Shown in pieces: positions 37-53,421 of a DNA stretch of 64,000 nt. Below the pieces are notes generated by a model that saw only the letters and a program-made list of their open reading frames with translations, was not told the origin of the DNA and made no database searches. The stretch is taken from the NCBI GenBank assembly GCA_003971905.1, contig RSEE01000001.1, positions 744,001 through 808,000 of the forward strand, written 5' to 3'. How positions within the stretch are numbered: position 1 is the first letter of the stretch; every line of letters starts with the position of its first letter. A program made the position numbers and the translations under genes. The stretch comes from Moniliella sp. 'wahieum' (taxonomy: Eukaryota > Basidiomycota > Moniliellomycetes > Moniliellales > Moniliellaceae).

Positions 37-96
37 GATGCATGATGTGTGATGTGTGATGCATGATAGCCAACCTTCAAGCTTCAAGCTTCAACC
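37..96. repeat. Compound heptamer array (GATGCAT/GATGTGT then TTCAAGC)
   Basis: Five units of period 7 (GATGCAT, GATGTGT, GATGTGT, GATGCAT, GATAGCC) at 37–71 are followed after four bases by three TTCAAGC-type units at 76–96. The second array overlaps the last codons and stop of the lysyl-tRNA synthetase relic on the minus strand, so it supplied the relic's present C-terminal residues. Confidence 0.85.
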
Positions 97-1175
97 TGGG
101 TCTCTGCTCCGGCTTCATCGCCGGGAAGGCGAGGACTTCGGCGATCCGGTTTGAGTAGGTCAGGAACATGGTCAGCCGGTCAATCCCCAGCCCCCAGCCC
201 GCTGTGGGCGGCAAGCCGTGCTCGAGCGCGCCGCAAACACCTCGTCAATCCCTTGCGCCTCGTCGTCGCCGGCGGCCGCTTGGCGCGACTGCTTTCGAAC
301 CGCTCCCGCTGGTCAAAGGGATCGTTGAGCTCCGTATACGCATTGGCAATCTCCTTTGATGCCACAAGGCTCGAACCGTTCGGGCAGACCCGGGATGGAG
401 CGGTGGTACTTGGCCAGCCAGCGGGCTCATCACCTCAAGGTGGCCCATGATAAAGGAAGGATTGATGCGCTGAGGCTCAATGTACTCGCCCACAAACTTG
501 TCCACCAACCGGGCCGATATGCGGGGCGCACTGCACTCCACCCTGTGCTACACTGCCAACTCATCCAGCCACTTACGCGCAGCCTCGGTGGAGCTGTTTG
601 GCAGGCGGGAAAGTGACATTGAGCTGCGCCTCGAGCTCCTTGATCATGTCGAATCGCCTCCAGGGGGTAGCAAAGTCAATCTCGTACACGGGGCCATCGG
701 GCTTATTCTTGCCGACATGATCCGAGGCAGAGACCATGATCAAGACCTTCTGACCCTCCGAGTGAAGATCATAAAAATGCAACTTGGCACCCTGCGCGCG
801 CACCGTGTGGATGCGGCCGGTAATGGACACTTTCTCCTCCAGCGTAGCTCCAGGGTCGGTGGTGGGGCCGTACTTGTCGATAAAGGCACCAAGGGAGGTG
901 TTTACATGGAACCTGTGAGGATACGGGTTGGACGCCTTGCTCTCACGCAGAGCCTTGATCGTGCGCGAGCGCTGCTCGTACTATTGCTGTGGGCTCAGTT
1001 CCCCCTCGTCCGTAGCGGACTTCGGCTTGGTCGCAGCCACGGGAGCAGCAGCCATCTTTGCCGCCTATTTTTCGGCGGACTGGCGCTCCTTCTGACGCCG
1101 CTTCAGTTCGCTCTTGCTGACCTTCTCGCCCATGACGGGGTCGAGGTGTGGGGCAGCGGCAGTAGCCTCAGACAT
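77..1175 (-). pseudogene. KRS1: Lysyl-tRNA synthetase relic (internally deleted)
   Basis: Class II lysyl-tRNA synthetases charge tRNA-Lys in the cytosol. On the minus strand the relic opens at 1175 with a lysine/alanine-rich N-terminal extension, then the start of the OB-fold anticodon-binding domain (MSITGRIHTVRAQGAKLHF). It then jumps directly to the C-terminal part of the catalytic domain ([62 protein letters not shown]). About 230 residues expected between these blocks, including class II motifs 1 and 2, are absent. At least three in-frame TAG codons (1065–1067, 981–983, 548–550) and several frameshifts interrupt it. It is read through to a TGA at 77–79. The lost core and substitution stops make this a true pseudogene, unlike the other broken genes in the window. 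Arrays of the same TTCAAGC heptamer lie at both ends. Confidence 0.9.
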
Positions 1176-1186
1176 GGTTATGGTGG

Positions 1187-1207
1187 TTCAAGCTTCAAGC
1201 TTCGAGG
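1187..1207. repeat. TTCAAGC heptamer array
   Basis: Three period-7 units (TTCAAGC, TTCAAGC, TTCGAGG) start 12 bp upstream of the first codon of the lysyl-tRNA synthetase relic. They match the array at 76–96 at the other end of the relic. Confidence 0.85.
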
Positions 1208-2402
1208 TGAATGGACGCCGGACTGAACCAACAGGTTGTGGAAAAGAAAAACAGGGGCCTACAGACACTGGCGCTGTGCCGTTCTTTAGACATATTCGCC
1301 CGGTCCGTGCATGTTAGGTTATAGCCCTAGGAGAGGATCTGTATCGTTTACGCCGGTAAACCCAATGGAATGCGGGGGCGGATGCACTATTAGTGCGAAC
1401 TCTTCCCCCCCCTTGTACTCCAACTCACTAACATTACCCACCCCCTCAAGTTCAACAGCCCCAAAGGATCGCGATGATTGGGTATCGTCAGGCTACATAG
1501 GAATGTCTCCTACATATGATACTAGTTTATTCACGTTCAACCCCCCCCCTCGGGCCTTGCAAAGCAGAGGAAAAGAGTGTAAGTGTGGCCCGAACGTCTC
1601 TGCCGACATTATAGCCAACCACACACCGGTCAGGCAATGCTGAGAACATATCCCGCCCGCCTCTCGTCACAAATGAAAGTCATTTATAATTCCCACACCT
1701 GTAGCAACTGCACACTCTTCACGACCTGCTCAGGCTGAGCCTTCGCATATAGGTGAGAGGCCCGATCGCTACTCTCCTGGCAACAGTCAACGCTCTACCT
1801 CCTCCCCTCTCACAGAGGCCACCATTTCGAGCATGCCAGACAACTCATCTCCGCATGTCCCATGGGCCCGGCTCCGGGAAAGGCTGTAAGTCCCGCCTCT
1901 CTCGGCTACAACTTTTGTGTGGCACAGCTTCGGCGGCGTGTTCCGACCGTTGCCGAACTGCATCAGTTGCTCATGTCCGCTCGTTCATTTTCCCTTTCGC
2001 ATATCCTCTCCTCCGCTAGCTTCCACCTGGATGAGATACTGACGGACTGTGTGCGGCTGCGATTATCCATCTACTACAGTCGCATCGGTATGGTACAAAT
2101 GCGAGAACCGTTCCTGGACGGCCATCCGTTTTATGAGCCCAACAATAATACCCAACACGCTGCCCCCCATCCCGAGCACTTGGCTGGACATCCCCCCGGT
2201 CCTTGGTACATCCCCTTTGCTGATCAGCCTCCCTTTTCTCCGCCACTGAGCTTGCGAAGTGTCGAAACACGTTCAGCTTCTGGTACGACTTTAGCCCTGT
2301 GCCTTTTTCCCGCCCCCAAGCCGATGGGGGCGCGTTGCTGGCCCGCTCGGTCCTCCCGAGTACCGCGATGTCCAGGTCCGTTTTGACCACCCACCCGGTG
2401 GG
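1208..2402. other. Spacer, possible 5' exons of the metacaspase
   Basis: No recognisable gene. Frames between about 2095 and 2400 are Pro/Gly/Tyr-rich (for example GHPPGPWYIPF), as expected for the low-complexity N-terminal prodomain of fungal metacaspases. I could not assemble a continuous reading frame or find a convincing start. Confidence 0.4.
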
Positions 2403-3498
2403 ATGATGGAGGACGGAGGGCGGTACGAGTACAGCACGATGACGGGCAAGCGCAAGGCCCTGCTGATTGGCATCAACTATGTTGGCTCCAGAGCGGAGCT
2501 CGGCGGATGTTGGAAGGATGTGGTAAACATGCGCAGCTTTCTCCTCACCTGCGGATTCCATGCGGAGGACATGGTTGTCTTGACCGATCAAACACCCGAT
2601 CCATGGGGACACCCTACCAGGGCCAACATCTCCGCGGCCATGCAGTGGCTCATCAGGGACGCTCAACCGGGTGATTCCCTCTTTTTCCATTATTCGGGCC
2701 ATGGCGCGCAGGCCAAGGCGACTCAAGGTGATCACGGTGCGTGTATGTCACCCTTCCTGTATGACTAGTGACTCCCCTCTGCCCCTCCCTCCTTCCTAGC
2801 ATGTTCCTGGTCTGACTCTCGCCTGCACCCACAGCGGACGGATTGAACGAGTATATCGTTCCTGTGGATTACCTTACCAATGGCATGATGGCGGATGACG
2901 AGCTGCATGACATGCTAGTGACCCCCTTGCCGGTCGGGTGTCGCTTGACCGCCTTGTTTGATTCGTGCTACAGTGGCACCGTGCTGGACCTGCCCTATGT
3001 CTACGCAACCAGTGGCCAACTTTTTGAACTCACCGTGGGGGCCAACATGGGCTGTGGAATGCGCAAAGCCATCCAATTGGCTGGCAAGATCACGGGGGAC
3101 TTTTCCACCGTACCTTCCGATAGTAATGCCGCTGTATACCCCAAAGCGCCAAGAGAAAAGGGGCGCAGGAGGATACAATTTGTACCCAGTCTTCTGGGGC
3201 CGATGTGGTGATGTTTTCCGGTTGCAAGGATAGTGAGACGAGTGCGGACACCTACGAAGCCCACAAGGCAACGGGTGCAATGAGCTTTGCTTGGATCACC
3301 GTCTTTTCACGCTGGCCCAACATTACCTATCTTCAGCTCCTAAACGCTCTCCGTGATGAGCTGGTCAAGTGTTTGGTCAGAAGCCTCAGGTTTGTACCTT
3401 GACTTCCTCCATTAGAGTATCTGTTGACTTGGATCTGATTGTGCCTCCGCAGATGAGCAGCTCCATCCATGGGATCTGAACCCCTGTTCACCATTTGA
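2403..3498 (+). CDS. MCA1: Type I metacaspase
   Basis: Metacaspases are Arg/Lys-specific cysteine peptidases of the caspase fold, linked in fungi to stress responses, protein quality control and regulated death. The p20 domain begins at KRKALLIGINYVGS. The catalytic histidine is in HYSGHGAQ (His codon 2700–2702) and the catalytic cysteine in DSCYSGT (Cys codon 2966–2968). The SGCKDSETSADT block of the p10-like region follows, and the gene ends in the typical DLNPLFTI-type tail at 3498. Introns are supported at 2737–2834 and 3390–3452. Four frame breaks (near 3190, 3378, 3463 and 3484) are each mended by adding one C or G to a short C/G run, so sequencing error is more likely than loss of function. 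The start is uncertain: 2403 is the first ATG in the p20 frame, and a Pro-rich prodomain probably lies upstream. Confidence 0.9.
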
Positions 3499-4312
3499 TC
3501 TCCGATACCCATCATATATGAGTCATGCCGGGATGGATATAACACGGGCGGACATATGTGTTGGATTGACACAATATTTTGTTTCAACATAAAACGCATC
3601 TGAAGCTTGAACCCTTGGATGTACCTGAACGTAATAGCTGAAGCTTGAACAAGCTTTGAAGTAGTACTGGCTGACATGTGTCCTTAAGCCTTAGGCCTTA
3701 TGTTAGGTCCTCATAGTACAAACTCTGAGAAGTACTTGGCACACTCAGTGCCCATATACACAGTTGCAATAACCTTTTGTAGCCCGTTGTACACCACGTA
3801 GGGCAGTGGAGTAAAGATAGTAGAGCGTCCCACAGCCGACGGATCGTACACGCGCCATAACGCTCGTCTCCGTTCCTGACGGCAAAACGTCGAAGCGCCT
3901 TTTGGGGTCATTTCCGGGCATGCCAACACAGGTCCTGCTGCATACCGTCTCTTCTGGCCTACCCGTGTATCACACGTGCATAATCTTGCCCTCATTCATA
4001 TGTGTGAGTCCCTCAAAAGCCTCTGGTGCACCCCCAATGAAAATTTCCGATAGTTTTGTGTAGTCGAATCCGAAGGAACGAGTTGGGATTGTGAGTCGGT
4101 GCGAACCATGAAGCCCATGGCGAAAAACCCTCGGGTGAATAATATTAAGGCCCGAGAGGGTATATACCCCGTTCCATACTGCTGAAAACGTACTGAACTG
4201 TGTGGCGCGCGCCAAAAGCTTCAAAAGACTGCAACACGGTACAACCCATGTAGCATCGAAGCAAAAATCAGCATGTCAATCATTAATCAATCCCAGTACC
4301 CAGTGTGTGTGG

Positions 4313-4333
4313 GTTTAACGTTTAACGTTTAAT
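4313..4333. repeat. GTTTAAC heptamer array
   Basis: Units GTTTAAC, GTTTAAC, GTTTAAT with exact 7-bp spacing. The same unit family (AACGTTT) recurs at 45.8 kb. Confidence 0.8.
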
Positions 4334-4395
4334 TACAAGGCGAAAAAAGGGAAGGCGAAAAGGTAATGGGACTTTTGAAGATGCATGATGGACTT

Positions 4396-4423
4396 GATGC
4401 ATGACATGCGACATGCGACAGCA
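4396..4423. repeat. GATGCAT/GACATGC heptamer array
   Basis: Four consecutive 7-bp units: GATGCAT, GACATGC, GACATGC, GACAGCA. Related units occur at 37, 25,713 and 52,584. Confidence 0.8.
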
Positions 4424-4809
4424 ACTATTGACATGGTGACAGTAGCGTGCGTAGCGTGGGAAGCTACCAAACACCTGCCAGGGTGTTGTGATTCGATACA
4501 TACCACCGACGGTTCATGATTTGTCCGGAGACAGACGCATCGCGAGAGCGTTTTTGTCCGGCCGGTCATACGTGTCTACCCTGCGCTATGCAGAGCAAAT
4601 GAGAGCCCGAACTGAGAAACGCAGGTTTGACACTCGATAGAATAGCATGGCTATCATATATTAAGGTCCTTAGGCCTACTAGGGCGTACTAGGGCCTGCT
4701 ATGAAGCTTAAGTCAAGTACGTTAACGCGTTAATACGAGTTTGACGTCAAGTGTCCGAGTTATCGATGCTATCGCGGGTTTCGAATTGGACACGTACCCA
4801 GAGCCAGTA

Positions 4810-4830
4810 AGCTTGAAGCTTGAAGCTAGC
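4810..4830. repeat. AGCTTGA heptamer array
   Basis: Units AGCTTGA, AGCTTGA, AGCTAGC; a permutation of the AAGCTT-core family. Confidence 0.8.
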
Positions 4831-5481
4831 TCTTGAAGCTTAATTGAATTGATAATTCAAGGCACCACGATGATGTGCGATACATATGTTGCCCAATGCA
4901 TGATGCGTGATGTTGGCGGTGGGCGTTTCCAGGAGCTCGACGCTTGGCGCTTGGAGCGTGGAGAGCCTGTGATGGACCTAGTGGGGAAGAGGGAAAAGAA
5001 ACTGTCCATTCACGCGGCGCGCAGGGCACGCCAAAAAGCGTATGGATTCCTCCGGACGGTGGACGCTGTGAGTGGTGCTCGGCAACCTTCTGCAACCCGA
5101 ACGGGCGTTGGAGGTGAGACCGGAGAGCACAAAGTGAGATGGCCAAATTGGGGGTTTCAGGTTCGCGATGGCGAATCGACTAATCTCTTCGTTCGGATAT
5201 CCGCCTGTGGTACGCAGCACGGCATTCCCACCCCAAGGCCAACTAAACTCGGTGGCCCTGAGGACCTGTTGAGCACAGGCCTTCAGGTCGTCAGGGCCTC
5301 GCCGGTCACCGGCCCCGAGGAGGAAGCAGCGGCGCAAAGCCAATCCGCACCGCTGGGGAGCAGGAAGCGACGCTGTGGGCAGTGTGATGCAGTGTGCAGG
5401 CACTGCCCCCATAGGAGTCATTCGGAGATTGTGCGGGACAAGGCTGCTGCGTTCTTTTGCAGCATGCATCATGTGTGATGC

Positions 5482-5502
5482 AGTCACTAGTCACTAGTCA
5501 TG
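5482..5502. repeat. AGTCACT heptamer array
   Basis: Units AGTCACT, AGTCACT, AGTCATG, passing in phase into TCATGCA. The ACTAGT palindrome spans unit junctions. Confidence 0.8.
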
Positions 5503-5805
5503 TCATGCACCATGCGTGTTTGCACGCGGGGGGCATGTCACACACCCATATCACCGGCCCAGGTGCGCGGGGAAATGCGCTGCCCCCGTGTGTCGCATGG
5601 GGCGAGCATCATAACCCTAATTGGCCGCAGCGCTGTCTGGCGCAGTCTCCGATTTGATCGATTCAAAAAGCCGTGTTTGGGGCCGACGCAGGCGGCAGCG
5701 CGGGGGCAGTGGGAGCACGGGGCGGGGGTCGGGTGTGCCTGAACGGGCGATTAGCATGGGACTGCCCCTGTGCGGGCATGGCCAGCAGTGCAGCCACTGC
5801 GATAT

Positions 5806-5826
5806 CGATAATCGATAATCGGTACG
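5806..5826. repeat. CGATAAT heptamer array
   Basis: Units CGATAAT, CGATAAT, CGGTACG with 7-bp spacing. Confidence 0.7.
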
Positions 5827-6221
5827 TGAGATATGGCCGTGCACGCGTACGTAGGCAGGCGGGACGGGCGTGTTCCTGCAGCAGGTTTCCTTGGCCTGTA
5901 GCGCCGCCCGCACTGCGTCTGTGCTGGGCCCAGCCCCCCAGGCTGCGCTAGCACCGAGCATGGGTCGTCGCGGCTGCCCTCGTGCCTGGGCCTTTGCCAC
6001 AGTCGGCATGCTCTGCAGCAGGCTGGCCACTGCTTGGCCTGTGCCTGTTGTTCTTTGTGCTAGCTCCGTCTCATATAGTCGCACCCTCTCGCCACCACCA
6101 GTGCCTGCGGCCCCCCCGGCACCCCTCTGATTGCTACGCTCGTCAGTCCCGTCCCTCCCACGTTGCTCAGCGCCCCCCCGGCACGCCTCCTTCGTCTCTG
6201 CCGTCGTGCCCGCCGCCTCGA

Positions 6222-7974
6222 ATGCGTCCCTCCCATCCCCAGCCCCCGGCCCATGGCTACCCGCCTGCCGCTCGTATTCAGCGCACGCTCACCGTGAACC
6301 AGCCATGGCCCCTCCCCCGCTCCACTGGCCCCGCTTCCCTGCCTAAGCGCGGCTCGGACTATCATATTCCGCCGTCGTCCCTCTACTCATCCACCTCTGG
6401 TGTCTCTGTCTCTCACGGCTTCGCGCCCTCCCAACACACGGCCAACCGCCCGCGGCTGCCGCCTCTACGCGGCCTGTTCGATGCTCCCGCGGCTTCAAGT
6501 TCCAGCGTTAACCGTATGTTCTGATTTTCTATTCTCCCCTCTTTATCTTCTTCCCTGAACCGGGAATGGTGAGTGCGGGTACGGAATTACGGTGAGAAGC
6601 GAGATTGCATCTCTAGTAGGAGAGACTTGGTCTACTCTGCTTCCCGTTTTTCTGTGCTCGTGCTTGATCGCCCAAACCAAGAGTTCTCTTTCACCCTATC
6701 CTTGTGGTGTATCGGGATTTGTGCGCTGACTGATTTGGGTTTTCTCCATTCTGTTCGTCTTGGCACGACTGTGGGGATCTGGATCAAAATTGTTCAGGCT
6801 CATCCTCCTTCAGCGCTAGTTCTTATCGTGAACCCCCTGCCCCCCAAGCCTCCGAATATGGATCGCAAATGACGGGCCCTCTAGCTGCGCAACGTTCTCA
6901 TTCGGACTCCAACCCGTATTACCCTACAATATTGATGGACCCGCCTATGGCACCGTACCACCCGCTGTGCAAGCCCGTACCAGAGGTGGAAGTGCCTCGT
7001 CGGCTCCATCGGCACTGGATGTTGGTCCTGACTTTGCTCCCCCCGGCCCCGCCTCGCATCAACAGGCCCCAGGGTCAGCCGACTGGAATGCCCCCTCGCA
7101 CCCAGGTACCATGTACGGCGAGCATGGACGCCATCATTCGTTGCCTGGTTTCGGTGTTTGCGGGACCAACGTCAGCGGGCCTCTGCTCGGTATGGATGAA
7201 CCCACCCGGGCTGCCTACATCTCCAACCTGGTTAATTCCATCGACCTGCAACGTTCCCTCCGCCCACGTGTGGGTGCGCGGGAAGGTCAGCCGGCCTGTG
7301 ACGAGTGTCGTACGGAAAGTCAAGTAGGTACTCACCCTTGACGTTCTCCATGATGCCAAGGTTACTGACCCGGTATGAACGAGCAGATGCGATCGCAACA
7401 CCCGTGCGCCAGGTGTGTAGCGAGCAAACGTACCTGTACCTCCAACGATACGCTCATGCGTCGCGGGCCGTTGACGAGGGAACAGCGGGCGGTGTTTGCG
7501 TTTTCGGGCATCACGTACGAATCCCACCGGGAGCGCATGAAGAAGCGTCGGCTGCTGCAGCAAGCTCAGCAAGTCATGCCGCCCCCCACGGGCGGGGGGT
7601 GCCAACCTTTCCGCCTACCCCAGGGACTGGCGCGTCGTACCCGACCGCCATTCCGTCACTGCCCCCATCCCTATTTCCATTCAGGTCCCCCCTGCCATCC
7701 CCGACCGAGGCGTACCACGAATACAGTTACCCTGCGGGCGAACGATATGACCCGACGGCAATGGCGCAGCATTCCCATGGTGGCCCCCAGGCGTGGGGAT
7801 GAACCATGGTGGCCTGCACGCATACTCGGGTCATGCGGTGGGTCGTTCGAGCTTCAGCCATAGCGAACTTGCCGTTCACGACCGATCCGCGGTGGACATT
7901 CCACTTCGATCGGCTCCTCTGCGCCCGGGTGGCCTACCTATCCTCTGCACGGCTCTGTGCCGTCATCGTATTGA
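6222..7974 (+). CDS. Zn2Cys6 fungal transcription factor
   Basis: Binuclear zinc-cluster regulators bind DNA through six cysteines that hold two zinc ions. The cluster is split by an intron (about 7324–7386): PACDECRT lies before it and CDRN, HPCARCVASKRTCTS after it, giving all six cysteines in the normal order with two local frame breaks. A linker and basic stretch (SHRERMKKRRLLQQAQQ) follow. The N-terminal exon from ATG 6222 and the C-terminal part are Ser/Pro/His/Tyr-rich low complexity, as in many basidiomycete regulators of this type. The intron 6514–6797 joins the first two exons in frame. The proposed end at 7974 (reading PLHGSVPSSY) follows another frame break at a G run near 7795. 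No fungal regulatory (MHR) domain is visible. Target genes are unknown. Confidence 0.75.
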
Positions 7975-10115
7975 GATGGAGGGTCTTGGCTCTGGGCCTG
8001 CCTTGTTTTGAGCACACGATGCTTCTTGTGCCCCCCTTTTTTTCTTGCGCTGATGCTTTTCAGCGCCACGGCCTTCGTACCCCTCCCCTACCGAGGAGGG
8101 AGGTGCTCTCTGCCCAATGGGCTCACCCTATATCTGCAAGTCGGACGCTTGACGACCCATTGACGACCCTTTTGCTGACGAATCTCCTATGGGGCACTAC
8201 GGTTGGGCCCACCACTTTTGTTTTATTGTTCTCATCAGGCTTGTCTAGCAAGCTGCCGACTTGGTTTGCCCACGCCTTGAACCCCCCTCCCGTTCCACCC
8301 TGCCCCCCGCCTATCCAAGCCCTGCACCTCTGTTTCCTGATGTTTGTACTTGTATTTGTACCTTTCGCTGAAAAGATGATGGCGTGACTATCGAGACTAC
8401 CGAGCGTGAGGACTATTGATCGCCACCGTCTACCCATAGCTACCTTCCCCTTGGTCCTCTCATGCCCGCGTGCACTGGACGTGTGGGAGTGGAGCGAGAG
8501 ACGTTTGAGCGCTACAGCTGGGGAAAGAGGTGGGATTCTCACCGTAAAAATGTACTGATGAACTACTGTGCTGCAATGGATGCAATCGTATGGGGGGTAG
8601 GGAGATCAAGGGGATCTTGTCGAGAAGACATATGGGGAGGTTCCCACATGTTGGCCACGGTGCTTTCGGCTCTCTCTTCTCTGGGCGTAGGAACCCCGAG
8701 CTCTGAGAGCGCCTAAAGCCCTGAGAGGCAGTCTGGCGACGACCCGAAGCGTTCTTCTCAGGCTTGGTTGTTCCGCAGCCACAGGCCCAGTGGCGCTTTC
8801 TTGGCGTGTTGTCATTAATCATTTGTCGGTACTGAACTCAATCTTCATTCGCGTCATTAGTACACTTGGATCACCGTGCTCCCACCACCACTACTACTAT
8901 GGTAGTGCGATGATTGACGGCGTTCCTCTAGACGGCCGTTAGGGCCTTACGGGCGTGCCACTAATAGGCTTCTTCCACAGGTCGCATTGATCAGATAGAA
9001 TGTGGAGACGCTTGGGGGTGAGGCTGGTGACGCTGGGGCACAGGAGAGGATGGGATGGGACGAGGGGTCGGGCAGGCGGGGTAGTTCGTGCTGGCGACGA
9101 GAGGCCCCGTTTGGGTTGGGGCAGCACAACCGAGGTGCTTCGGCGCGTCTGGTCTGGTCCGCTTGGGCCGCGCAGCACCCAGCTGTGGGCAGCAAGCAGG
9201 GGTGCCGGCGGGAGGCTGGGCGGCAAGTATCAAATGGCGACGGGCGGGATCGCGTGATACGTGGTGCATGCTGGCTAGCGCTGCGCCTGCATGCGCTCCC
9301 ATGTTCCCAGGCGGGCCTGCGACGGCGCTGGGCCCCGCTGTGCTGGGCGAGGCGCAGGAGCGCCGGTGCCTGTCACGCGTTGGGCTAGTGTGCGCTGTGC
9401 GCTGGACGAAGATCTGATGAAATGCAAGATTGAAGCTGCAGATGGCAGATGGCCGATGGAAGATTGGTGTTGAAGCGGACATTGACTAGCGACGTTATGC
9501 GGAAGGACTAAGTGACGATCGATGGAGATTGATCGAATTGATCTTGCCCCGGGCCCGGCATCGCCACGCCGGGCACTAGGCCGCTGCTGGTGCATCCACC
9601 GCCGCCTGGTCCGGCACAGCAACACACTGGCCACGCACGCAGGAGAGCGGGCAGGTGCCTGCCCACACATATGCATGACATGCGTCTGCTGCGCCAGCGC
9701 GGGGCTCCGCATGCGGTTATTTCCGGAGCGGGGGCGCTGTGCTGCTGGCCGCCCTCCGCCGCTGGCAGCCGCACGGGCGGGGCAGCCGGCGCAGTGCACG
9801 GCAGCAGCCCGCACAGCACACTCGCGCCCTGCCGCGTGCGGGCAGCGCATGTCCGCCTGCGCCGCCCCAGGCGGCTCCCACCGCTTTGCAGCGGCTTTCA
9901 CGGGCGGAGGGCAGAATAGCGCAGCAACTGTCGCCTGCGGCCGCAGACGGCTGCATGCGCCGCTTCCCCGCGCAGGCGCTGCCCCCCTGCCGCGCCACGC
10001 CGCCACCGCTCGTCGTCCCCGGCGGCTGCACCGGCCGCATCCGGCCCGGTGCGGCCGGTTTAAAGTCGCCGGCGCGCCTTCTTCTTGGTCCGCCACGCTT
10101 CTCCTCCCCCCCACC
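7975..10115. other. Spacer with GC-rich island before PDH1
   Basis: No gene recognised. The part 9550–10110 is very GC-rich with alternating CG and GC-type trinucleotides and lies directly upstream of the 2-methylcitrate dehydratase start, so it is probably its promoter and 5' leader. Long antisense frames here are products of GC bias. Confidence 0.5.
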
Positions 10116-17907: not shown

Positions 17908-18459
<552 letters not shown>

Positions 18460-18547: not shown

Positions 18548-20113
18548 CGCGCGCTTCCTTGGTTGAGCGCGTGGCTGTTGGCTCAGAAACGGGGCGCTCG
18601 GGGCAGAAATGATGCGCTTGCGGACGGGCCCGGAGGGGGAAGGCAGAGGGGGACGCACGGGGGCAGTGGCATCGGTAGCCACTAGCCCTCCTCGCCGTCG
18701 CTGTGGCATCCTGGCCTGCCATTCCCCTCGCTTCCCTGCTCCGTCGCTGGCTTGCGCCGTGCCTGCCGCGGCTTGCACCCCGTCCCCTGCTCTCGATTTT
18801 TCATTGGCCGCTCTGGCACCAGGTATCACCCGCCAATCACTGTTCCCGTTTCCCCCCTCGGCCAACCCATTCAAAACGTCCAACGTGTTCGTCGCAACAA
18901 CTCCCGACAAAGACCGGGAGCTGGCAATCGCCACACCAGCAGGATCGGCATGATGCAACCGGGCAGTGTCGCGCTATTGGTGAGATGCCTGGATGATCAA
19001 TGATCGAGATCGATGATCAATTGAATATGGAATCGAGCTTCGAGGAGGCCTCAGGCTCAACTCAGCGCTGAGGCCGAGGACTGCAGGGTACTGCTTACTA
19101 GCTGCCATTGTCATTAGTACTTAGTTGTCGCTGGTTGGCCCAGTAGGGCGGGGGAGGGACTGGGGTGGGTATGTATGGCATAGTGGCAGTGTAGCCAGAC
19201 TTTGCTAGAGTGAAGGTAGTGATGGCAGGATGCCGTTTCCCTTCCAGCTTCACGCTCCAAGTCCTATTCTCTCAGTGTACTCATCTAGTCATAGTACCCA
19301 ACATCCAATAGCTACCCGGGCGTCGTAGCCCAGGGAGGAGCCCGGAAGGAGCTGAAGCCTGCGTTGCCATCCCAGCCGGCCCAGCAGAGCCTTTTAGATG
19401 GGTCCAGAGGACGAGTCCTGCTAGGTCATCGCATCCTGGTGCTATTCTGGAAGCGTCGTTAAAAACTTTCACACCTCTGTCGACTTGAGGCACTCTGCTT
19501 AGAAACCAGTCTGGCTGTATGTTGCAAGTGTTAGATTCACATTCCATCTCCCCAGGCCCTACCCGCACCCTCCTCCCACGAGGACCATATGCGTGCTTTC
19601 GCCGTGCGGATACTGATAAGCCAACCCTAGCTACCATACCCCCCGCCTGCTCCGACTGATTGGAACCTTACCTCCGCATAGTGCTTCGGCCACCACTGCG
19701 GAACAGCGCTGGCCGGGCTAGCTGCCCAGGCGTTTGGGCGGGGGAGCTGGCTACGTCACGAACAGCAGCTTCAGGGCACTGATCGAGTGATCCAGTGTGC
19801 AACAAATTAAGGCTGCAAGTTGGCCCTGGCCGCCAATGATAACCGTCTAGCGGGGTGGAGTCGGGCAGTTACTCGTCGGGCCTCAGGCACAGCGCCTCAG
19901 TCCCCAGTCTGGCCGGCGATGTGCAGGGCCTGGACCAATGCCAGAGTGCCTGCCCAAATCAACGTTCAGCAGGTCTCTGATCCGCCTCGACACATCCAGC
20001 CGATCCGCTCCCATCACGTTGGGTATCAACGGCCTGTCTGAACTCTGAACCAGGCCTCCATTAACTATCCCCGCCCCGCTTCCCTCCCGCTGCCACCGCT
20101 GCGTTTTCCCAAG
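18548..20113. other. Spacer upstream of H3 and the MFS gene
   Basis: H3 promoter region, then sequence with no recognisable gene. GATGATC/AATGATC heptamers lie at 18992–19025 and CTCAGCGCTGAGG-type palindromes near 19060. Confidence 0.5.
18992..19025. repeat. GATGATC heptamer array
   Basis: GATGATC, AATGATC, GAGATC (one base short), GATGATC, AATTGAA. Nearly constant 7-bp phase with GATC palindromes in each unit. Confidence 0.7.
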
Positions 20114-33745: not shown

Positions 33746-35279
33746 TCAGACAACGTTGTCTTCGCTCAGGAGGCCACGTCGTTTGATGCAGGGTGCACAA
33801 GGCGACGGCCGAAGAAGATCTCTTCGGGGACACCATGCGCACGGGGAGAAGTTGCGGTTCCCCCCGGAGCAAATGCGGTCGAGAAGCAAGTCAATGCCCA
33901 GCCGGGGGCGCGGGAGGATAGACACGTTCACCATATGGGTCGAGATCGCAATGCGTATTTGCTCCTTCATCGTCTTCGCCCTAGTTTCAGGCATATTAGC
34001 GCCAGAGTTGGATGGCGTGGAATAGACCGGGGTAATGCCATACGACTGGAAGAACTGCTGCAACTCTGGAGAGGTCAAGCTGGTGGCAGTGTCCACGGTG
34101 ATCGTCCTAGGTGGGCCGAACGGCTTGATCCATGTGCAATACAACGCCTCAATGACCGATCCAGACTTCATGTCCGGCATCAGACCCGCAGTAAGAAACC
34201 GAGAAGATTGGTCCCTGATGACCAGGAAATTCTGAACGCACCCGTCAGGGACGAGGTCACCGATGTATCCAAATTCGAGATTTAGATGCAAGCCAACATC
34301 CGCCCACTCCCTGTGTCCGAGACCAGCGGAGGAGCGACGCGGCGGGCGGTGGTGGCGTGGGGTGCCCTTCTTAGCCTTCTTCTTAGTGGCGGCACTCGAA
34401 CCCGGTGCACCGGAAACAAGAACAGCACTACTGGCAGACCGGTGATCCAAGACGTAGCGCCTTGCGCATGCGAAGTAGTCCATCCGCTTGGTAGCGAGAT
34501 ACTCCAAGGCGGAGGCGGGTGTGTTCCCGTCGCGGGTAGCAGCAGCCAACAGCCTGTCCGAATCACGGTCCTCAAAGCGGCTGATGATGGCATCAATGAC
34601 GTTATCAGACGTGTCCGTAAACGGCGTGTGAAGCATGCCAAGGAGCTCGAGATCGTTCCGGGCCTCACGCAGGGCCATGTCCAGCGGCATATGATTGTAA
34701 CGGGTGCCGCTGGCGATGTGCAAGCGCAAATCACGCATGGCACGGTCCCGCGGATAAGCCGTCTTGAGGGCGTCTTGCAGGTCAGACCAACCGTTAGCCT
34801 TCATGGAGTATGTGTGCGCAGCACCCTCCAGAAGGTGGCGCAGCGCGAACTTGATGTGATCCAGGAACTCGGCCGCCTCGGTGGAGTGGGATCGAGATCC
34901 GCTGGCAGATCTTTCTCCGCCTCCTCATCCAGAACCCGGAGCCATTCGTCAAGACGCCACGGCTCCGAACCATCGAAGACGTTAAGAACGCTGCTCAGCG
35001 CAGTGGGGGCGGTTAGGCGTGCCTGCTGAATGTGCGCCTTGGCAAGGGAAGCACGAAGCACGGCGAGCTGCTCGTCAAAACGGCGGCGATCGTCCTCCCG
35101 TGCTGACGATCTTCCTCGCGCTGTGCACGGAGTTCGGCTAGGGTCGAGGCCATAGTATCCTCGAGGTGTTCGACGCGAGCTTTCGTGGTACGGGCAGCGG
35201 GTTCTTGTGATGCCTGGTGGGCAGCGTAACGAACCTCGCGTTCGGCAGCATGGGTTTCCGGAGCAGAAGTTGCGGCCAT
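33746..35279 (-). mobile_element. LTR-retrotransposon relic: gag joined to integrase, protease and reverse transcriptase missing
   Basis: On the minus strand a gag-like frame starts at 35279 (MAATSAPETHAAEREVRYAA) with a coiled-coil-like VEHLEDTMASTLAELRAQRE. It continues in another frame (RFDEQLAVLRASLAKAHIQQ, GSEPWRLDEWLRVLD) and then in a 352-codon frame from 34804 (MKANGWSDLQDALKTAYPRD, a retrotransposon gag capsid-type helix bundle). That last frame passes directly into an integrase core: FLVIRDQSSRFLTAG with the first Asp, PRTITVDTATSL with the second Asp, and GANMPETRAKTM with the Glu 35 positions later (34 residues between), the DDE spacing of retroviral-type integrases. No protease, reverse transcriptase or RNase H lies between, so the copy is an internal deletion derivative and cannot move by itself. 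Gypsy-like affiliation is likely but unproven. Confidence 0.8.
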
Positions 35280-35346
35280 TGGGAATGATGGTACTTTTGA
35301 AGGAAAGGAAGAGGGTGGGTGGGTTCAATTCAGAGAATTCGGGAAG

Positions 35347-35538
35347 ACCTTTTGGCTTCAATCTTGTTGCGATGGCCGAGGCAGTCGGACTGGCGTCAAA
35401 GTACAGTCTGTCGGCAGAGAGAAGCACCGGGAATCAAGGCGAGGGGCAGAGAGGGAAGCAGCGAGTTACGCGAGGAGTCGAGAGGGCACGAAGCCGAGTA
35501 GGAGTCAGGGCCTCAGAGGGTAATTGAAGCCAAAAGGT
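35347..35538. repeat. 192-bp segment bounded by perfect 16-bp inverted repeats
   Basis: ACCTTTTGGCTTCAAT at 35347–35362 and its exact reverse complement at 35523–35538. Direct repeat copy B lies inside. It may be a small element of its own or part of an LTR. Confidence 0.7.
35364..35424. repeat. Direct repeat copy B flanking the retroelement relic
   Basis: About 61 bp, same orientation as 32537–32594 and sharing GAGGCAGTC, GACTGGCG and GGCAGAGAGAAG. It lies just upstream of the gag start. Confidence 0.6.
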
Positions 35539-35615
35539 GGGACAAGGAGATAAGCAACGGAGGCCGTGGAGCGCGTTGAGCTCGTTATTTCCTAACCCCA
35601 AGCCTCAACCCCCTC

Positions 35616-35636
35616 GATGATCGATGATCAGCGCTC
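35616..35636. repeat. GATGATC heptamer array
   Basis: GATGATC, GATGATC, then AGCGCTC in the same 7-bp phase. Confidence 0.75.
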
Positions 35637-40917: not shown

Positions 40918-40989
40918 GGTGGACGTGGACGTGATGGGAGGTAGTGTAGGTGAGCGTCACGCCGCTTTCAGTACTTGCGTCTGGGCGCT

Positions 40990-41017
40990 GACTAGTGACT
41001 AGTGACTAGTGACTACC
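40990..41017. repeat. GACTAGT heptamer array
   Basis: GACTAGT three times exactly, then GACTACC; ACTAGT palindrome in each unit. Confidence 0.9.
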
Positions 41018-41140: not shown

Positions 41141-41161
41141 TGTGATCGATGATCGATGATC
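41141..41161. repeat. TGTGATC/GATGATC heptamer array
   Basis: TGTGATC, GATGATC, GATGATC in phase; same unit as at 35616. Confidence 0.8.
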
Positions 41162-43036
41162 ATCCCCGAGATGATCGGTCGTCGCTGAGGCTGGGCGCTG
41201 ACGCTGGTCTTTCCCTGCGCCGGTAGAAGCCGCGTGGTGCAGCAGCCGCGGCGGGTAGCAGCGATGCGCTCGGAGTAACTAGCAGCGAGGAAGCGGACAA
41301 TTACGCCGTGTCGCACTGCCAAGTGCCGTTGGGCCATCGGTGCAATGGCATGGTCTGTGAGCAGATAGGGCCGTGTGAACAGGTCTGCGTTTCGTTTCGT
41401 TTGGCCTGTCGTCAATCGTTGCACTACTTCACTGGTCTCCCCACCTCCATCGACCCAGCGCAGGTGCTTAGCATGCAACATGCGCTCCTCGGCTCCAAAG
41501 CGCACTCCCATTCGACACTGAAGTTCAATACTCAGTGTACTCAGTGCTCAATGTGGGTGATGCATGATGTGACTCCTCCTCGATCATCGCAGCTCGGCGC
41601 TTGGAGCTTCTCTAGACCCTGTACAGCTATCTGTGCCACTGCTGCAACTGTGGCGCAGATATCCCCGCCAACGTCGAGATATCCCCACACGCCCGCTGTT
41701 GCAACACATGTGTTGGTTGCAAGTGAATCAGTTAACCATTGGTCATTAGTCATTGTCAACATCCAAGCAGCTTCTCTCCGCCTGCCTGGTCCACACCGTC
41801 GTTTGGTTTTGCATGGCCACACTTATGGTCAGCTGTTTCCGTTGTGCCTGCTCCTGGGCGGCCGCTGGGGGGTGAACGGAGTGAGCCTGGGTGAGTTCAT
41901 TCCGTCAAGCGTCACGCGTCACTATCGGCATTGTGGCATGTACCCATCCTCCCAACGACCCGTTATTTTACACACAACTACAGTGAGGCCCTTGTCTCTT
42001 TCCACTACCATTTGTCTGTTGGCCCGTCTTATTGACCGAGGATCAGATCGCAGAGAGAGGTCCAAGGCCAAATCCACGATGACGTACGCTGCAATGCGGA
42101 CACACGTTGGCGGCGAGCCAATGGAGCCTGTACTCTCTTCCAATTCCCCGAAGAGATGAGCGTAGGCGGGCGTGCGAACAGATACTCCCCAAGAGTCTCC
42201 TTCCGACCCCCAACAGATTGCACCCAATTTAAAACCTCTGGGACGGGCGCCCAGACTGGGAACGCCCATGTCAAGGGCCCCATAGCACGGCGCGAGTCTG
42301 ACATCACTCTTTTCTTCTTCCCCCATCCTTAGTCCGCGGGCTAGAGATATTAGATCCACAGATTCTGTCTTCTCTCTACGTCTGCATAGCAACTGCACTT
42401 TTGGGACGTTACTGCGGCAGATTGATCTCCACGCTCCAGCATGTTTGACATTTCCTATTGCGTTACGCATATATGCCCTTTTGGGTAATCCTGCACCCGT
42501 TTGCGAGCTTCTCTAACGTCTGCGCTTCTCCGCTCAAGCGTTTCAGCTGCAATGCCTTGCTTTGAATCTGGAACGTTTTGAACCCATCGAGCTCTCTTCA
42601 CTAGTCACTGCATTTCAGCTTCACAATCTTTCCATTTAATTGTAACCCTCCAATCTATAGAAGCTATGATTGAGTACAGTGAATTCTATGGGTATGCCAA
42701 TTTGCTTGCTGGGACATGTGGTTGTGGACCTGCCGCTTAGGCAGCGCTCAGCCTGAGCGCGCATGCAGCTTGCGCTACGCAAGCGCATCATGCAATCCAT
42801 CACAGATGCTTGTCATGACGACCCCGGCATTGATGTCTTGGCGATCGACTGTCTCGATGATCTCTCGGTGATCGCAATGGTTAATGTTCGAGAGCATCGG
42901 AGCGGCAGATGTGAATTTTGTGCGTGCGTGGGTATCTCACAGATGTGGCTACGACCAACGTGAATAGTGACTATAGTCACATGTCACATCTAGTCACAGG
43001 AACTAGTGACTATTGATTGTCACAGTGGCCAGAAGT

Positions 43037-43071
43037 GACTAGTGACTAGTGCTAGTGAAGCTTGAAGCCAG
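43037..43071. repeat. Compound heptamer array GACTAGT to AAGCTTG
   Basis: GACTAGT, GACTAGT, GCTAGTG, AAGCTTG, AAGCCAG: one family passes into another without loss of the 7-bp phase. Confidence 0.8.
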
Positions 43072-45773: not shown

Positions 45774-45930
45774 CGACGTTCAACGTAACGTTAAACGTTA
45801 ACGCTAACGCGATAACGTTTAACGTTTAAGTGTTAACTGTGAACGTCACGCGTCAAGTGCCCAACGGCGATAATCGATAACGCGTAACGCGGAACGCGCA
45901 ACGGTTAAACGGAAAGCGTATAATAAGGTT
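45774..45930. repeat. AACGTT/AACGCG palindrome-rich block
   Basis: About 150 bp made almost only of permuted AACGTT, TTAACG, AACGCG and CGATAA words, including two exact AACGTTT heptamers at about 45814–45827. Confidence 0.8.
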
Positions 45931-46420
45931 TAACGTGTTTATACGTTTATCCATCTGATGCATTGCACAGTACTAGTACTGGTTCCTAGACGGACCAGCG
46001 CGGGGGCACGCTGGCGTTGAGACGCTGATGGCGCTGATGCACTGATGAGAGCATTAGGGTCGCGGCGCCGCCACCAAAGCCGAAGGAGGGTGAGCGGTCG
46101 AGTGGCGGCTGTAGGCCAAAGGCGATGATCGATGACATCTGAGATTGGCTGGCCGAGTCTCCTGACCGCCTGACCCTCCGGTCACCGCTGTCACCGGTCA
46201 CCAGCAGTCACGCACATGCATCATGCTACACGCTACCCCCCCAGTAATGGCCTGAGCGCCTGCAAAGAGCGCCTGAGCCCAATGCTTAGGAGCCGTTGAG
46301 CGAACATGCATGTTGCGCATCATGCTCATGTCGGTACGAGATGCGATCTGCCAACAGGCCATGCCGATCGGAGAAAGAATAGGCAGGAAACTGTGACACA
46401 ACAAAGTCAGTATGTAGAAA

Positions 46421-46441
46421 ACTAGTGACTAGTGACTAGGA
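46421..46441. repeat. ACTAGTG heptamer array
   Basis: ACTAGTG, ACTAGTG, ACTAGGA; same family as 40990. Confidence 0.85.
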
Positions 46442-46874: not shown

Positions 46875-46917
46875 GGTCATCGGTCATCGGTCAGCGGTCA
46901 GCCGGGCAGCCGGGCAG
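46875..46917. repeat. Compound heptamer array GGTCATC to GGTCAGC to CGGGCAG
   Basis: GGTCATC twice, GGTCAGC twice, then CGGGCAGC and CGGGCAG. The unit changes by one base at a time along the array. Confidence 0.85.
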
Positions 46918-47047
46918 AGGGGCAGACCTCAGCCTGAGACCAAAACTGCATATTCGTTTTTTAATGAGCGGATGCAGTGTTGGTGGAGAGCAGCAATTAA
47001 AACGTCAAACTGTGGAGCTACACAGACTCGTTGGGGCATCCTGCGCT

Positions 47048-47068
47048 GCATCATGCATCATGCATCAC
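47048..47068. repeat. GCATCAT heptamer array
   Basis: GCATCAT, GCATCAT, GCATCAC; reverse complement of the GATGATGC/GATGCAT family. Confidence 0.8.
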
Positions 47069-47153: not shown

Positions 47154-47220
47154 AATCATCGATCATCGATCATCGCCAAGTCTGGGGCATCTGATCTCCG
47201 ATCTCCGATCTCCGATCTCA
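47154..47220. repeat. GATCATC and GATCTCC heptamer arrays
   Basis: AATCATC, GATCATC, GATCATC at 47154–47174, then GATCTCC three times plus GATCTCA at 47193–47220. Two neighbouring arrays share the GATC core. Confidence 0.9.
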
Positions 47221-47366: not shown

Positions 47367-47387
47367 TTCAAGCTTCAAGCTTCAGGT
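47367..47387. repeat. TTCAAGC heptamer array
   Basis: TTCAAGC, TTCAAGC, TTCAGGT; same unit as at 76 and 1187. Confidence 0.85.
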
Positions 47388-51613: not shown

Positions 51614-53421
51614 ACCTCTTCATTTCTTTTGCATCATCTGTCAAGGTACTCGTGGAAGACCTTCAGTTCCTCTCACGTCTTCTTCCTCTTTCACTGTCGA
51701 ACGTTGCTGAAGTCTACGAGCTGTTCCCCTCGGGTACGCCGCCTTCTTTTCTCATGTCCTTTCACGCCAGTGTCTTTTGTCCGGACCTCCTTTGCACGTC
51801 TCCCTTGTTCTCCCCTCCGGTTGTGAATCGCTTTGGGCCATTGGCTCGTTTCTTTCTGTCCCACGGGGTCGTTGTGCCTCTAGTCTTTGTCCTCTCTTGA
51901 TCTTCATCACGCTCTGCCATCAGTTGTTGCAGGCAACACGGCCGAGTACGACCGCATTAACCCCTCCCCCCTCTCTCACCTTTGCCCCATCTCCCTTTTG
52001 TTCGTTGTCTAGCTCTTGTTTCATCTCAGTATTGCATGTCTTCGCCCTGTCTCCGCCCATGAACTTCATGCAGTTGCGCCCCGTTGGCTAGCTCGAGCCG
52101 GAGACGGCTGCCCCTGGTGAATGACAGTTGAACGTTGATGATTGACGCGGTTGACGTGGACCGGTTATGGTGAAGGGGATGGACGGTGAGCCTACGTTGA
52201 ACGTGTTCCGTACGCTGAATGCAAAATGAACTGCTTTGAATATCTCTCTACTGTAACCAGATCGTCGACAGAGCTTTAAGGCCCGTTGGGACGAAGAAAC
52301 GCTGCGCCTACTAAACCGACATGCCCATCCGGCGTGTGTTGCTTGGTAGCGCCAAACACTCACGTTTAGGGAACCAGGGGAATCGCCACTAGGTCAGGAC
52401 CTTCTGGGGCCCGCCATCCGGTCTCATATCCGAGGTAGCGCGTGTGGATACGAATGAACGTGGTACACATCCGAGCGGGGAACCACCTCCATCGAGACTC
52501 AGTTGTAGGTAATTGGGGTCGATGGTGGACACATGGGATACGGTGGAGGAGGTGCATTGCCCAGAGGTGTCGACATCACATCTGACATGCGACATGTGAT
52601 ACGGCATGCATGTGACATGGGGCATGTGATGCGATATGTGATGTGACATGTGACGCATCCCCATGGGGAAAAGGAGACCTGCTCGCTTGGGCCGTCATGC
52701 CCAACACTGGCGCCATTGCCCACCACCATCCCCGCCACGCGGAACGACTTGGGGATGGAATGTGCGACCGGTGCGGATGGGAAGCCACGCGACGCTTTCT
52801 TGGCCGGACCCTGCATGGCCGCCTCCATCTGCCTCGCCGATTCTCCTGGGTTAGAGGCAACGGTGGATGAAAGCCCCAGCTCGGTTGCCGGCGAGCCACC
52901 AAGACCCCTTTCATGGTATACCACAAGGCCCAAGTCCACATGTCCACAGGTCCACATGTCCACTTTTCCAACCCAGGTTACCAAAAGGTACGGCGAACCG
53001 CACAGGCCAAACCCTTCTGGTTGGCGATTGTAACGTGCTAAACCAAAAGGCTATGTGTGTCTGATCGAGAAAACGTGTTTGATTCTGTAAGCGCAGACCG
53101 GAAGAACATCGATCAGCCGGAAACGGAGGAGAATGGAGGTTTTCTCTCCATCGTCAGAGAAACGGGGGAGAGGATCAGAGTACTTATGATGGTGGCGAGG
53201 AGCCCACACATGCAAAAGCCGTCAATCATCAAGGGAGACATTGTCCCCGCAGCGGAGCCTGAAAAGGGAGCGCCCGGCCTCTGGCCATCAGCCTTGGGTG
53301 CCCGGCGGGAGGCACGCTCCCGGCGTTTCTTGGGATGGGAAACTATGTGATACGAGCACGCCACGAGAGGGACCCGGCCGACCCGGTGTCGATCTAATTT
53401 GGGGATGGTAGAGGGGGTGAG
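51614..53421. other. Spacer with GATGTGA/CATGTGA block
   Basis: No assigned gene. Frames at 52650–53033 (plus) and 52499–52984 (minus) overlap and neither shows a domain. A heptamer block lies at 52584–52655. Confidence 0.4.
52584..52655. repeat. GACATGC/GACATGT/GATGTGA heptamer block
   Basis: GACATGC, GACATGT, then GATGCGA, TATGTGA, TGTGACA, TGTGACG-type units with imperfect phase; related to 4396 and 25713. Confidence 0.7.

Follow-up and report, generated by a model that had tools for sequence, protein, structure and literature searches.

Across a 64,000-nucleotide stretch of Moniliella sp. 'wahieum' (contig RSEE01000001.1, positions 744,001 to 808,000; hereafter the window), short tandem arrays of differing sequence share a 7-bp period, which raises the question of what process writes them.

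Period-7 arrays in the window and the genome

Every array listed by an earlier sequence-only reading was recovered, at most about six bases from where it had been placed, by Tandem Repeats Finder and an exact-run list. The 7-bp period as an observation was confirmed: exact arrays are far commoner than in shuffled DNA, both within the window and across 200 kb of contigs C1-C10. Exact period-7 runs of at least 9 matching bases occur 23 times in the window. At a minimum of 10 bases there are 18, whereas 20 dinucleotide shuffles, done block by block, averaged 0.05, and the runner-up at that length is period 3 (n=5). Outside the window, 20 stretches of 10 kb, two per contig C1-C10 (L009-L028), gave 39 period-7 runs versus 0.4 in 10 Markov simulations. 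The claim that 7 dominates holds in so far as this period leads, but in L009-L028 other periods exceed simulation too (period 6, 22 runs; 3, 15; 18, 15; 12, 14; 24, 14; 9, 13; 23, 11). The reported range of 2-5 units was only partly reproduced: exact arrays in the window have 2.3-3.9 units, and the longer ones, of 4.6 to 11.3 units, are all imperfect (63-88% identity). In the whole genome (69.5 Mb), three copies of TTCAAGC gave 432+502 matches and TSATGCATSATGCATSATG gave 875+837, overlapping matches and the two strands of one array being counted separately; both patterns written in reverse gave 0 matches genome-wide.

The proposed avoidance of coding exons was borne out, as none of 69 arrays (runs of at least 9) overlapped predicted coding sequence, the mask being a home-made codon HMM of modest sensitivity that covered 52,941 of 264,000 bases. 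The same applies to the palindromic core: 45 of the 69 arrays have a unit consisting of a full 6-bp palindrome plus 1 base, a form taken by 122 of 1172 possible unit classes and expected in 15.9 arrays with unit letters shuffled, while a perfect palindrome is absent in 24. As 44 of the 45 palindromic units are centred on TNA, a heptanucleotide microsatellite with an unconstrained unit was rejected.

Unit grammar and junction classes

To speak of many different units, as the earlier description did, is misleading: a single grammar underlies most of them, namely TNA, a palindromic tetramer and TNA in direct orientation. Arrays and single-unit forms (scars) in the window are listed below without strand (T, Tandem Repeats Finder; E, exact-run list; R, run scan; H, haplotype comparison).

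33..67, degenerate array GATGCAT/GATGTGT in 7-bp phase, exact core 43-61 (T, E)
75..94, array (CTTCAAG)n, TCA + AGCT (T, E)
1187..1203, array (CTTCAAG)n (T, E)
2762..2773, single scar TGACT-AG-TGACT; other haplotype TGACT-ATATTG-TGACT (R, H)
4313..4332, array (GTTTAAC)n, TTA + ACGT; one unit fewer in other haplotype (E, H)
4403..4420, array (GACATGC)n, an exception with 2 of 3 positions pairing and no TNA core (E)
4809..4827, array (CTTGAAG)n; one unit more in other haplotype (E, H)
5482..5500, array (AGTCACT)n, TCA + CTAG; single TCA in other haplotype (E, H)
5804..5821, array (GATAATC)n, TAA + TCGA (E)
8812..8823, single scar TCATT-AA-TCATT (R)
19114..19125, single scar TTAGT-AC-TTAGT (R)
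35614..35629, array (GATGATC)n (E)
40989..41015, array (AGTGACT)n, TGA + CTAG, 3.9 units (T, E)
41143..41161, array (GATGATC)n (E)
41909..41922, scar CGTCA-CG-CGTCA; empty site in other haplotype (R, H)
42598..42609, scar TCACT-AG-TCACT; empty site TCACT in other haplotype, flank differing by 1 bp (R, H)
43034..43068, array (AGTGACT)n, then TGA-AGCT-TGA; two AGCT units more in other haplotype (E, R, H)
45813..45829, array (GTTTAAC)n (E)
46190..46202, scar TCACC-GG-TCACC; one unit fewer in other haplotype (R, H)
46421..46439, array (AGTGACT)n (E)
46875..46893, array (GGTCATC)n, only 2 of 3 pairs (E)
47047..47067, array (CATCATG)n, TCA + TGCA; two units more in other haplotype (E, H)
47155..47175, array (GATCATC)n; extra TTAA unit at left in other haplotype (E, H)
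47193..47219, array (GATCTCC)n, an exception with only 2 of 3 pairs and no TNA core (T, E)
47367..47384, array (CTTCAAG)n (E)
52127..52138, single scar GTTGA-AC-GTTGA (R)

The scar at 2762..2773 is, in our reading, intronic in a metacaspase gene, called by Peptidase_C14. A Zn2Cys6 domain, also found, points to a fungal source.

Between direct TSA pairs at 7-bp spacing, the 13 commonest tetramers are all palindromes, as are 159 of 295 overall (chance, 6%); inverted TSA pairs flank only 20 and 26, versus the 159 direct ones (each tallied on both strands). The second TNA carries the same central N and not its complement, and the palindromes (yy.yy') centre between bases. Maximal period-7 runs with TNA-palindrome-TNA peak at length 5 (48, then 32, 16 and 9), whereas lengths 3 and 4 account for just 7 and 9; the direct repeat therefore measures 5 bp, its copies separated by 2 bp of reverse complement. 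Written out, the basic product is xxTNAyy·yy'·TNAyy, yy' being the reverse complement of the neighbouring dinucleotide. Rarer 8- and 9-base forms retain 1 or 2 bases of xx, and a rarer 6-base form also drops the T. In 103 events TNA was required and N was free, the flanks being close to background apart from one position, and TNA with a loop of 3 and a 2-base stem was found 228 times versus 0.5 in shuffles.

TNA-palindrome chains number 157 in 211 kb of non-coding DNA. Those of one, two and three units (124, 26 and 7) depart from the 188.5, 4.1 and 0.1 predicted for independent events, and something therefore makes events recur locally. Seven of the 33 chains with at least two tetramers are mixed; each of these contains two tetramers, no more, and switches between them once, which is the pattern that outward copying of each side of one TNA would give. 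Non-TNA cores of the same form gave 145 matches; 89 remain after removal of the 56 that overlap a TNA link, against about 34 in shuffles, and CAT/ATG and similar cores were set aside as largely other readings of the same arrays. A general preference for palindromes was likewise rejected, the 64 hexamer palindromes ranging from 1.74 to 0.66 of expectation with no overall excess.

A junction scan, with array members counted in, compared TNA with ANT, CNG and GNC. For TNA it gave 119 and 109 junctions of the +2/-2 class (controls 0-7), 16 and 9 of +2/-1 and 11 and 8 of +2/0 (controls 0-2 in both). The second copy starts at -2, -1 and 0 from the T in 19, 25 and 228 cases (controls at most 8). At +1 there are 21, versus 3 for ANT, the only control of like abundance, 21 for CNG and 19 for GNC; at +2 there are 21 (controls 25-54). 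The 0/0 class (68; controls 16-29) and the +1/-1 class (84 and 82; controls 0-15) are affected by palindromic array members that fit several classes at once. Spacerless TNA-TNA (-2/-2, a 3-bp step) occurs 171 times versus 80, 514 and 406 in controls, and TNAyy repeats with 3- and 4-base spacers have the predicted content in only 25 of 72 and 38 of 106 cases.

The product reads as a duplicated 7-bp symmetric core NNTNANN with two palindromic bases (P nucleotides) added at one end and usually two lost at the other. The 8- and 9-base classes, with their +2/-1 and +2/0 junctions, favour this xxTNAyy core; the main class shows a 5-bp repeat and permits a 5-bp reading.

Haplotypes and the origin of the scars

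The two haplotypes are about 97% identical over 40,901 aligned columns. Under a looser filter (439 of 627 gaps passing), gaps of 5 to 15 bp numbered 2, 3, 11, 4, 6, 2, 1, 0, 1, 7 and 4; a strict flank filter (n=221) left two of 7 bp and five of 14 bp, so that the haplotype peak is weak, and certain 7-bp gaps, e.g. at 35843, are not TNA units. Seven chain records are longer by exactly 7 and six by exactly 14. Filled/empty pairs lie at 41912, 42598, 46191, 48003 and 3745, with a gain of 14 over the single-copy site at 3745 and 48003. As the haplotypes differ by whole 7- or 14-bp units and by filled and empty sites, the process is recent.

In each scar a TNA-centred site is duplicated; one copy ends in two extra bases, the reverse complement of its last two, and the other, taken as the 7-mer xxTNAyy, usually lacks its outer two bases, less often one or none, and sometimes the T too, for a net gain of 7, 8, 9 or 6 bp. 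On these sequence features, arrays and the more numerous single-unit forms may be repair scars of a TNA-centred, 7-bp-staggered breakage whose hairpinned ends are nicked open at 2 nt from the tip before end joining, a reading that we rate at close to even. Cuts in the two strands at TNA would lie 7 nt apart, or else an inserting element would make a 7-bp target duplication and later leave. The flanking ends would be closed into hairpins, and an Artemis-type nick 2 nt from the tip would give a 4-nt overhang, whose ligation to the other end's recessed strand would produce the +2/-2 joint. Each scar would create a perfect palindromic NNTNANN, and growth into arrays is likely, whether the event recurs or the new 7-bp repeat slips. 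A TNA-specific event with a 2-nt palindromic addition agrees with the earlier suggestion that an enzyme or a hairpin mechanism left the footprint; copying in 7-nt steps is not the most economical version of that suggestion, as steps of 6, 8 and 9 also occur, partly with predictable content, and what the steps share is a symmetric 7-bp core with 2 palindromic bases gained and 0-3 bases lost. Several observations weigh against the repair-scar reading: the local recurrence of events, the non-TNA cores in excess of shuffles, the 3- and 4-base-spacer repeats that lack the predicted content, the weak haplotype peak under the strict filter, the 24 arrays that are imperfect palindromes, a joint more uniform than known Ac/Ds footprints, and the lack of an element or a transposase match.

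It is possible, though we hold it somewhat doubtful, that this represents a previously undescribed system of TNA-specific DNA breakage, genome-wide and without a recognisable mobile element, in which 7-bp-staggered hairpin-ended breaks in fungal non-coding DNA undergo V(D)J-like repair that continually writes palindromic 7-bp scars and arrays, as a leading source of small insertions. One simple grammar accounts for a large part of a genome-wide class of short repeats usually dismissed as microsatellites, and the scars preserve the junctions of apparently very many hairpin-type break repairs. A responsible transposase would be very active and nearly invisible; if there is none, a sequence-specific source of double-strand breaks is implied. 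Whichever the agent, a natural system becomes available for testing indel spectra, strain typing and hairpin-opening enzymology (Pso2/Artemis family).

Elements with terminal inverted repeats inside TNA-type 5- or 7-bp duplications, with ends up to 6 and up to 12 kb apart, were sought over about 310 kb (the window, the C25 stretch, L030 and L009-L028); none was credible, the matches being arrays or weak. Three large haplotype differences, checked by eye as possible filled sites, showed no TNA duplication, namely a 2.8-kb window-only stretch between near-direct repeats of roughly 40 bp, a single-copy 178-bp window-only stretch and a 165-bp C25-only stretch. Whole-genome Pfam searching, which gave 71 RVT_1 matches, returned nothing over cut-off for the hAT models PF05699 and PF14372, KDZ (PF18758) and RAG1 (PF12940), four of the six transposase models, for which the control genomes were silent as well, so that these zeros do not amount to absence. 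The MULE model PF10551 (control positive in three prokaryotes, a measure of sensitivity that does not extend to eukaryotic MULEs) and the PIF/Harbinger model DDE_Tnp_4 PF13359 (E<=0.1; control positive in two prokaryotes) also had 0 matches. Two sub-threshold PF05699 matches are, in our reading, alleles adjoining a panB-like frame and not hAT. PIF/Harbinger has a 3-bp TSD; it was rejected for want of a domain match. Footprints of element tips with fixed ends were discarded in general, since the two inserted bases are a copy of the flank. An LTR retrotransposon TSD as scar core was discarded too for the one LTR-like family examined, two copies of which have 5-bp duplications AGAGC and TCCAA, without TNA.

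The main rival is snap-back copying, in which, in the course of replication or repair, a 3' end wwTNA folds back and is extended by ww', and the template is copied anew past the extruded 7-nt mini-hairpin wwTNAww', iteration adding 14 or 21. In the main class the inserted sequence is indeed a 7-mer that forms an odd palindrome around a 3-base centre, and the 8- and 9-base forms are alike with 4- and 5-base centres; the geometric fall of chain lengths (124/26/7) resembles an iterating process, the +14 gains at 3745 and 48003 agree, and no transposase was found. We nevertheless consider it unlikely. ANT, CNG and GNC centres would pair equally well yet their +2/-2 counts stay at background, TNA has 2 stems of 3 and 0 of 4, against 17 non-TNA stems of 3, and the 6-base class requires a 2-base loop (21 cases; 3 in ANT). 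Inverted repeats with loops 3-8 (arms of at least 6) are near shuffle, although those with loop 0 (arms of at least 7; 27 vs 13.2) and loop 1 (arms of at least 6; 124 vs 61) exceed it.

Staggered TNA cuts might also be made by a sequence-specific nuclease, a domesticated transposase or a DNA-damaging agent, a mobile element never having inserted. The density of scars in non-coding DNA with no filled site seen in about 310 kb, and the six transposase models without a match over cut-off, suit this explanation; we hold it quite improbable, as hairpin ends would still have to be explained and stagger with fill-in predicts plain TNA duplications. Exact plain 7-bp duplications at TNA, arrays excluded, number 7, equal to the ANT control, which also counts against the hairpin-repair reading, our best explanation, as a plain 7-nt stagger should yield them. 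Plain duplications of any sequence outnumber those in shuffles at each of the lengths 5, 6 and 7 bp (412/270, 185/82 and 108/33; both strands), with no link to TNA. Ordinary slippage, which we regard as very improbable and as an origin already contradicted, may contribute once two units exist, array lengths differing between haplotypes by whole units; it accounts neither for the TNA rule and the palindromic tetramer nor for the single-unit scars of 5 bp + 2 bp and the period-7 lead. Selection for binding sites would suit arrays lying beyond the coding mask, but at least 13 different palindromic tetramers serve and the copies are polymorphic and dispersed, so that we give it hardly any credence.

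Comparison with known systems

The scar chemistry proposed here is that of the flank-hairpin transposases (hAT, Mutator-like, Transib/RAG). RAG/Transib elements have a 5-bp TSD, and the palindrome of V(D)J coding joints is centred between bases. In Candida albicans, as described in PMC5873905, Ds excision leaves P-nucleotide footprints, Ac/Ds footprints fall into 28 types among 128, and the hAT footprint palindrome has as its centre the complement of the base next to the element. The scars are alike in the duplicated target bases, the palindromic P-type nucleotides observed at the joint and the proposed end-joining of hairpinned flanks. Unlike the footprints covered there, the joint is nearly uniform (+2/-2) and the palindromes centre between bases; the target is fixed at TNA, and neither filled sites nor hAT matches over cut-off were seen. 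According to PMC3528771, Artemis opens hairpins dominantly 2 nt 3' of the tip and V(D)J P nucleotides have a dominant length of 2. With V(D)J joining (RAG and Artemis) the scars thus share P nucleotides, that length and the between-base palindrome; they differ in a less variable joint, a duplicated core without V(D)J counterpart and the lack of a RAG1 match (control silent). Target duplications of 7 bp are given in PMC12730594 for hAT7 families of rust fungi and for the basidiomycete KDZ element Kyakuja, whose likeness ends there, no KDZ match (control silent) or element having been seen. In the open-licence PMC literature on fungal 7-bp repeats, 7-bp TSDs and footprints or P nucleotides, titles and abstract openings among the matches listed held no description of the pattern. 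Microsatellites and heptanucleotide repeats share tandem units and unit-number polymorphism with the arrays, which are set apart by their unit grammar, TNA specificity and single-unit scars with a mirror spacer.

Period-7 arrays and their units

Arrays of 7-bp period are present where the sequence-only reading had located them in the window, and they exceed shuffled sequence. The window has 18 exact period-7 runs of at least 10 matching bases, where shuffles average 0.05; 39 such runs, against 0.4 in simulations, were counted in a 200-kb sample consisting of two 10-kb stretches, taken at fixed positions, from each of contigs C1-C10 of the same assembly (L009-L028). The claimed dominance of 7 held in part: it was the leading period of this sample, but runs at periods 6, 3, 18, 12, 24, 9 and 23 (22, 15, 15, 14, 14, 13 and 11, respectively) also exceeded simulation, the excess being smaller than at 7. 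The avoidance of coding exons was confirmed, with none of 69 arrays inside an approximate, codon-based mask covering 20% of a 264-kb sample. A palindromic core in most units was likewise found: in 45 of the 69 arrays the unit consists of a 6-bp palindrome and one further base, and 44 of these 45 are centred on TNA (37 TSA, 7 TWA).

Two array words gave 934 and 1712 hits genome-wide (overlaps and both strands included), against none for the same words read backwards. By our reading the reversed TTCAAGC word is also an odd palindrome, with centre AST in place of TSA; palindromy alone is therefore insufficient. In non-coding DNA, a palindromic tetramer is enclosed by 159 of 295 direct TSA pairs 7 bp apart, and the 13 commonest tetramers between such pairs are all palindromes. 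The inverted arrangements TCA-palindrome-TGA and TGA-palindrome-TCA, perhaps deeper hairpin openings, are rarer than the direct one (20 and 26 in the non-coding sample, both strands counted) and above the chance expectation of 5. Chains of linked TNA-tetramer-TNA units contained one tetramer in 124 cases, two in 26 and three in 7, isolated forms thus outnumbering arrays; independent hits would predict 4.1 and 0.1 for the two longer classes. Either a fresh palindromic site is preferred, or chains are extended by slippage, or several units arise per event. The period-7 finding is real and more orderly than was first perceived.

The elementary product and its junctions

The period-7 run length of TNA-palindrome-TNA forms peaks at 5, and the simplest product is therefore TNAyy, the reverse complement of yy, and TNAyy again. 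When isolated pairs were compared with their flanks, one flank was matched in 34 and 35 cases, both in 17 and neither in 19, while the ANT control yielded 3 palindromic cases altogether. TNAyy repeats exceeded ANTyy repeats at spacers of 3 bases (72 against 27), 4 bases (107 against 29) and 1 base (53 against 33), and also at several spacers of 7-11 bases, some being second neighbours within arrays; spacers of 0 and 5 showed no excess. The predicted content, two palindromic bases and then the last one or two bases preceding TNA, was carried by 25 of 72 3-base and 38 of 106 4-base spacers, the remainder being unexplained. Because part of these spacers carry it, the pattern suggests that the duplicated core is xxTNAyy, symmetric around TNA and probably 7 bp long.

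The second copy starts at the T of TNA in 228 cases, at -1 in 25, at -2 in 19 and one base inside in 21, a distribution which places the centre of trimming at 2 bases. One base inside, the control centres ANT, CNG and GNC gave 3, 21 and 19, and starts two bases inside were at or below control; the T may be lost in a minor class only. At TNA, stems of 3 and 4 occurred 2 and 0 times, while at other centres 17 stems of 3 occurred. With 2-base stems there are 145 cores other than TNA; 56 of them overlap TNA links, and the remaining 89, more than the 34 in shuffles, may include mutated TNA. Little target preference was seen outside TNA.

Differences between the two haplotypes

The 69.5-Mb assembly holds two haplotypes of the window locus. 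Window 2000-7600 and 23528-64000 match contig C25 in reverse orientation and with gaps (C25:38447-75000 and L030); the alignment spans 40,901 columns and is about 97% identical. A further allelic pair, L039/L040 on C69/C13, shows 95% identity. Array alleles, whose comparison the sequence-only reading had proposed, differ by whole units of 7 and 14 bp. Under the looser filter (439 of 627 gaps kept), gaps fell from 247 of 1 bp to 2 of 5 bp and rose again to 11 of 7 bp and 7 of 14 bp; strict flanks kept 221, with 2 at 7 bp and 5 at 14 bp. The aligned part includes 82 chain records: 23 have equal lengths in the two haplotypes, in 7 the length is greater by exactly 7 bp and in another 6 by exactly 14 bp. 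The TNA process has been active recently, and filled/empty haplotype pairs include the following.

Window 41912
Window 42598, with a 1-bp flank difference
Window 46191
Window 48003

At window 2762 a TGACT duplication is common to both haplotypes and the spacers differ (AG vs ATATTG). Many gaps of 1-3 bp, which look like long-read errors, were left out of the analysis. Gene frames at window 1-1200 and 2430-3400 are interrupted by differences of 1-3 bp, and those breaking frames in the metacaspase region are often missing from the other haplotype; such frame-breaking differences look like uncorrected long-read errors.

Proposed hairpin-ended breaks, the rival snap-back copying, and elements seen

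The sequence rule is read directly from the DNA, and from it we infer the steps of breakage and hairpin opening. Whatever the agent, arrays and scars appear to behave like the outcome of repairing hairpin-ended breaks around a TNA-centred core. TNA would be cut with a 7-nt stagger, or a 7-bp target duplication would form there; the ends would be sealed as hairpins and opened 2 nt from the tip, and the resulting overhang would be ligated to the recessed strand of the opposite end. Artemis products have a 4-nt-overhang geometry, and flank-hairpin chemistry belongs to Mutator-like and RAG/Transib enzymes. Among known parallels, Ds excision in Candida albicans is described as leaving footprints with P nucleotides (PMC5873905), Artemis as opening hairpins predominantly 2 nt from the tip (PMC3528771), and fungal hAT7 and Kyakuja elements as having 7-bp TSDs (PMC12730594). 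Known hAT footprints are more varied and differently centred than these scars, which are placed in no known family.

The main rival is snap-back copying, to which the addition of several units by one event is well suited, given the excess of two- and three-unit chains, but which leaves both the need for TNA and the stem of 2 unaccounted for. Three results cut both ways between this and break repair and do not shift the odds: the class starting one base inside, 3- and 4-base spacers of which part fit, and the residue of non-TNA cores. A scan of about 310 kb revealed no element with TNA-type duplications. Six transposase models gave no match over cut-off in the whole genome; four of the six were silent in controls and the other two rang in prokaryotes only; reverse transcriptase (RVT_1) gave 71 matches. 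Other elements and haplotype-specific stretches are as follows.

L017:8975-9828, L027:414-1281 and L015:9273-9999, LTR-like family of about 854 bp
L014:3250-4686, minus strand, open frame whose translation, by our reading, looks like a non-LTR reverse transcriptase
Window 32594-35432, 2.8 kb present in the window haplotype and absent in C25, including an integrase-core (rve) frame
Window 42061, 165-bp insertion in C25 only
L013:4958-5255, tandem repeat with a period of about 23 bp as judged from offsets
L027:3602-4074, tandem repeat with periods of about 18-36 bp as judged from offsets

The 165-bp insertion shows no visible target duplication and no inverted ends, and the rve stretch is flanked by near-direct repeats of roughly 40 bp. 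The LTR-like family has the ends TGTCACGGG...CCCGTGACA; two of its copies are flanked by 5-bp target duplications, AGAGC and TCCAA. The two longer tandem repeats are different from the 7-bp kind.
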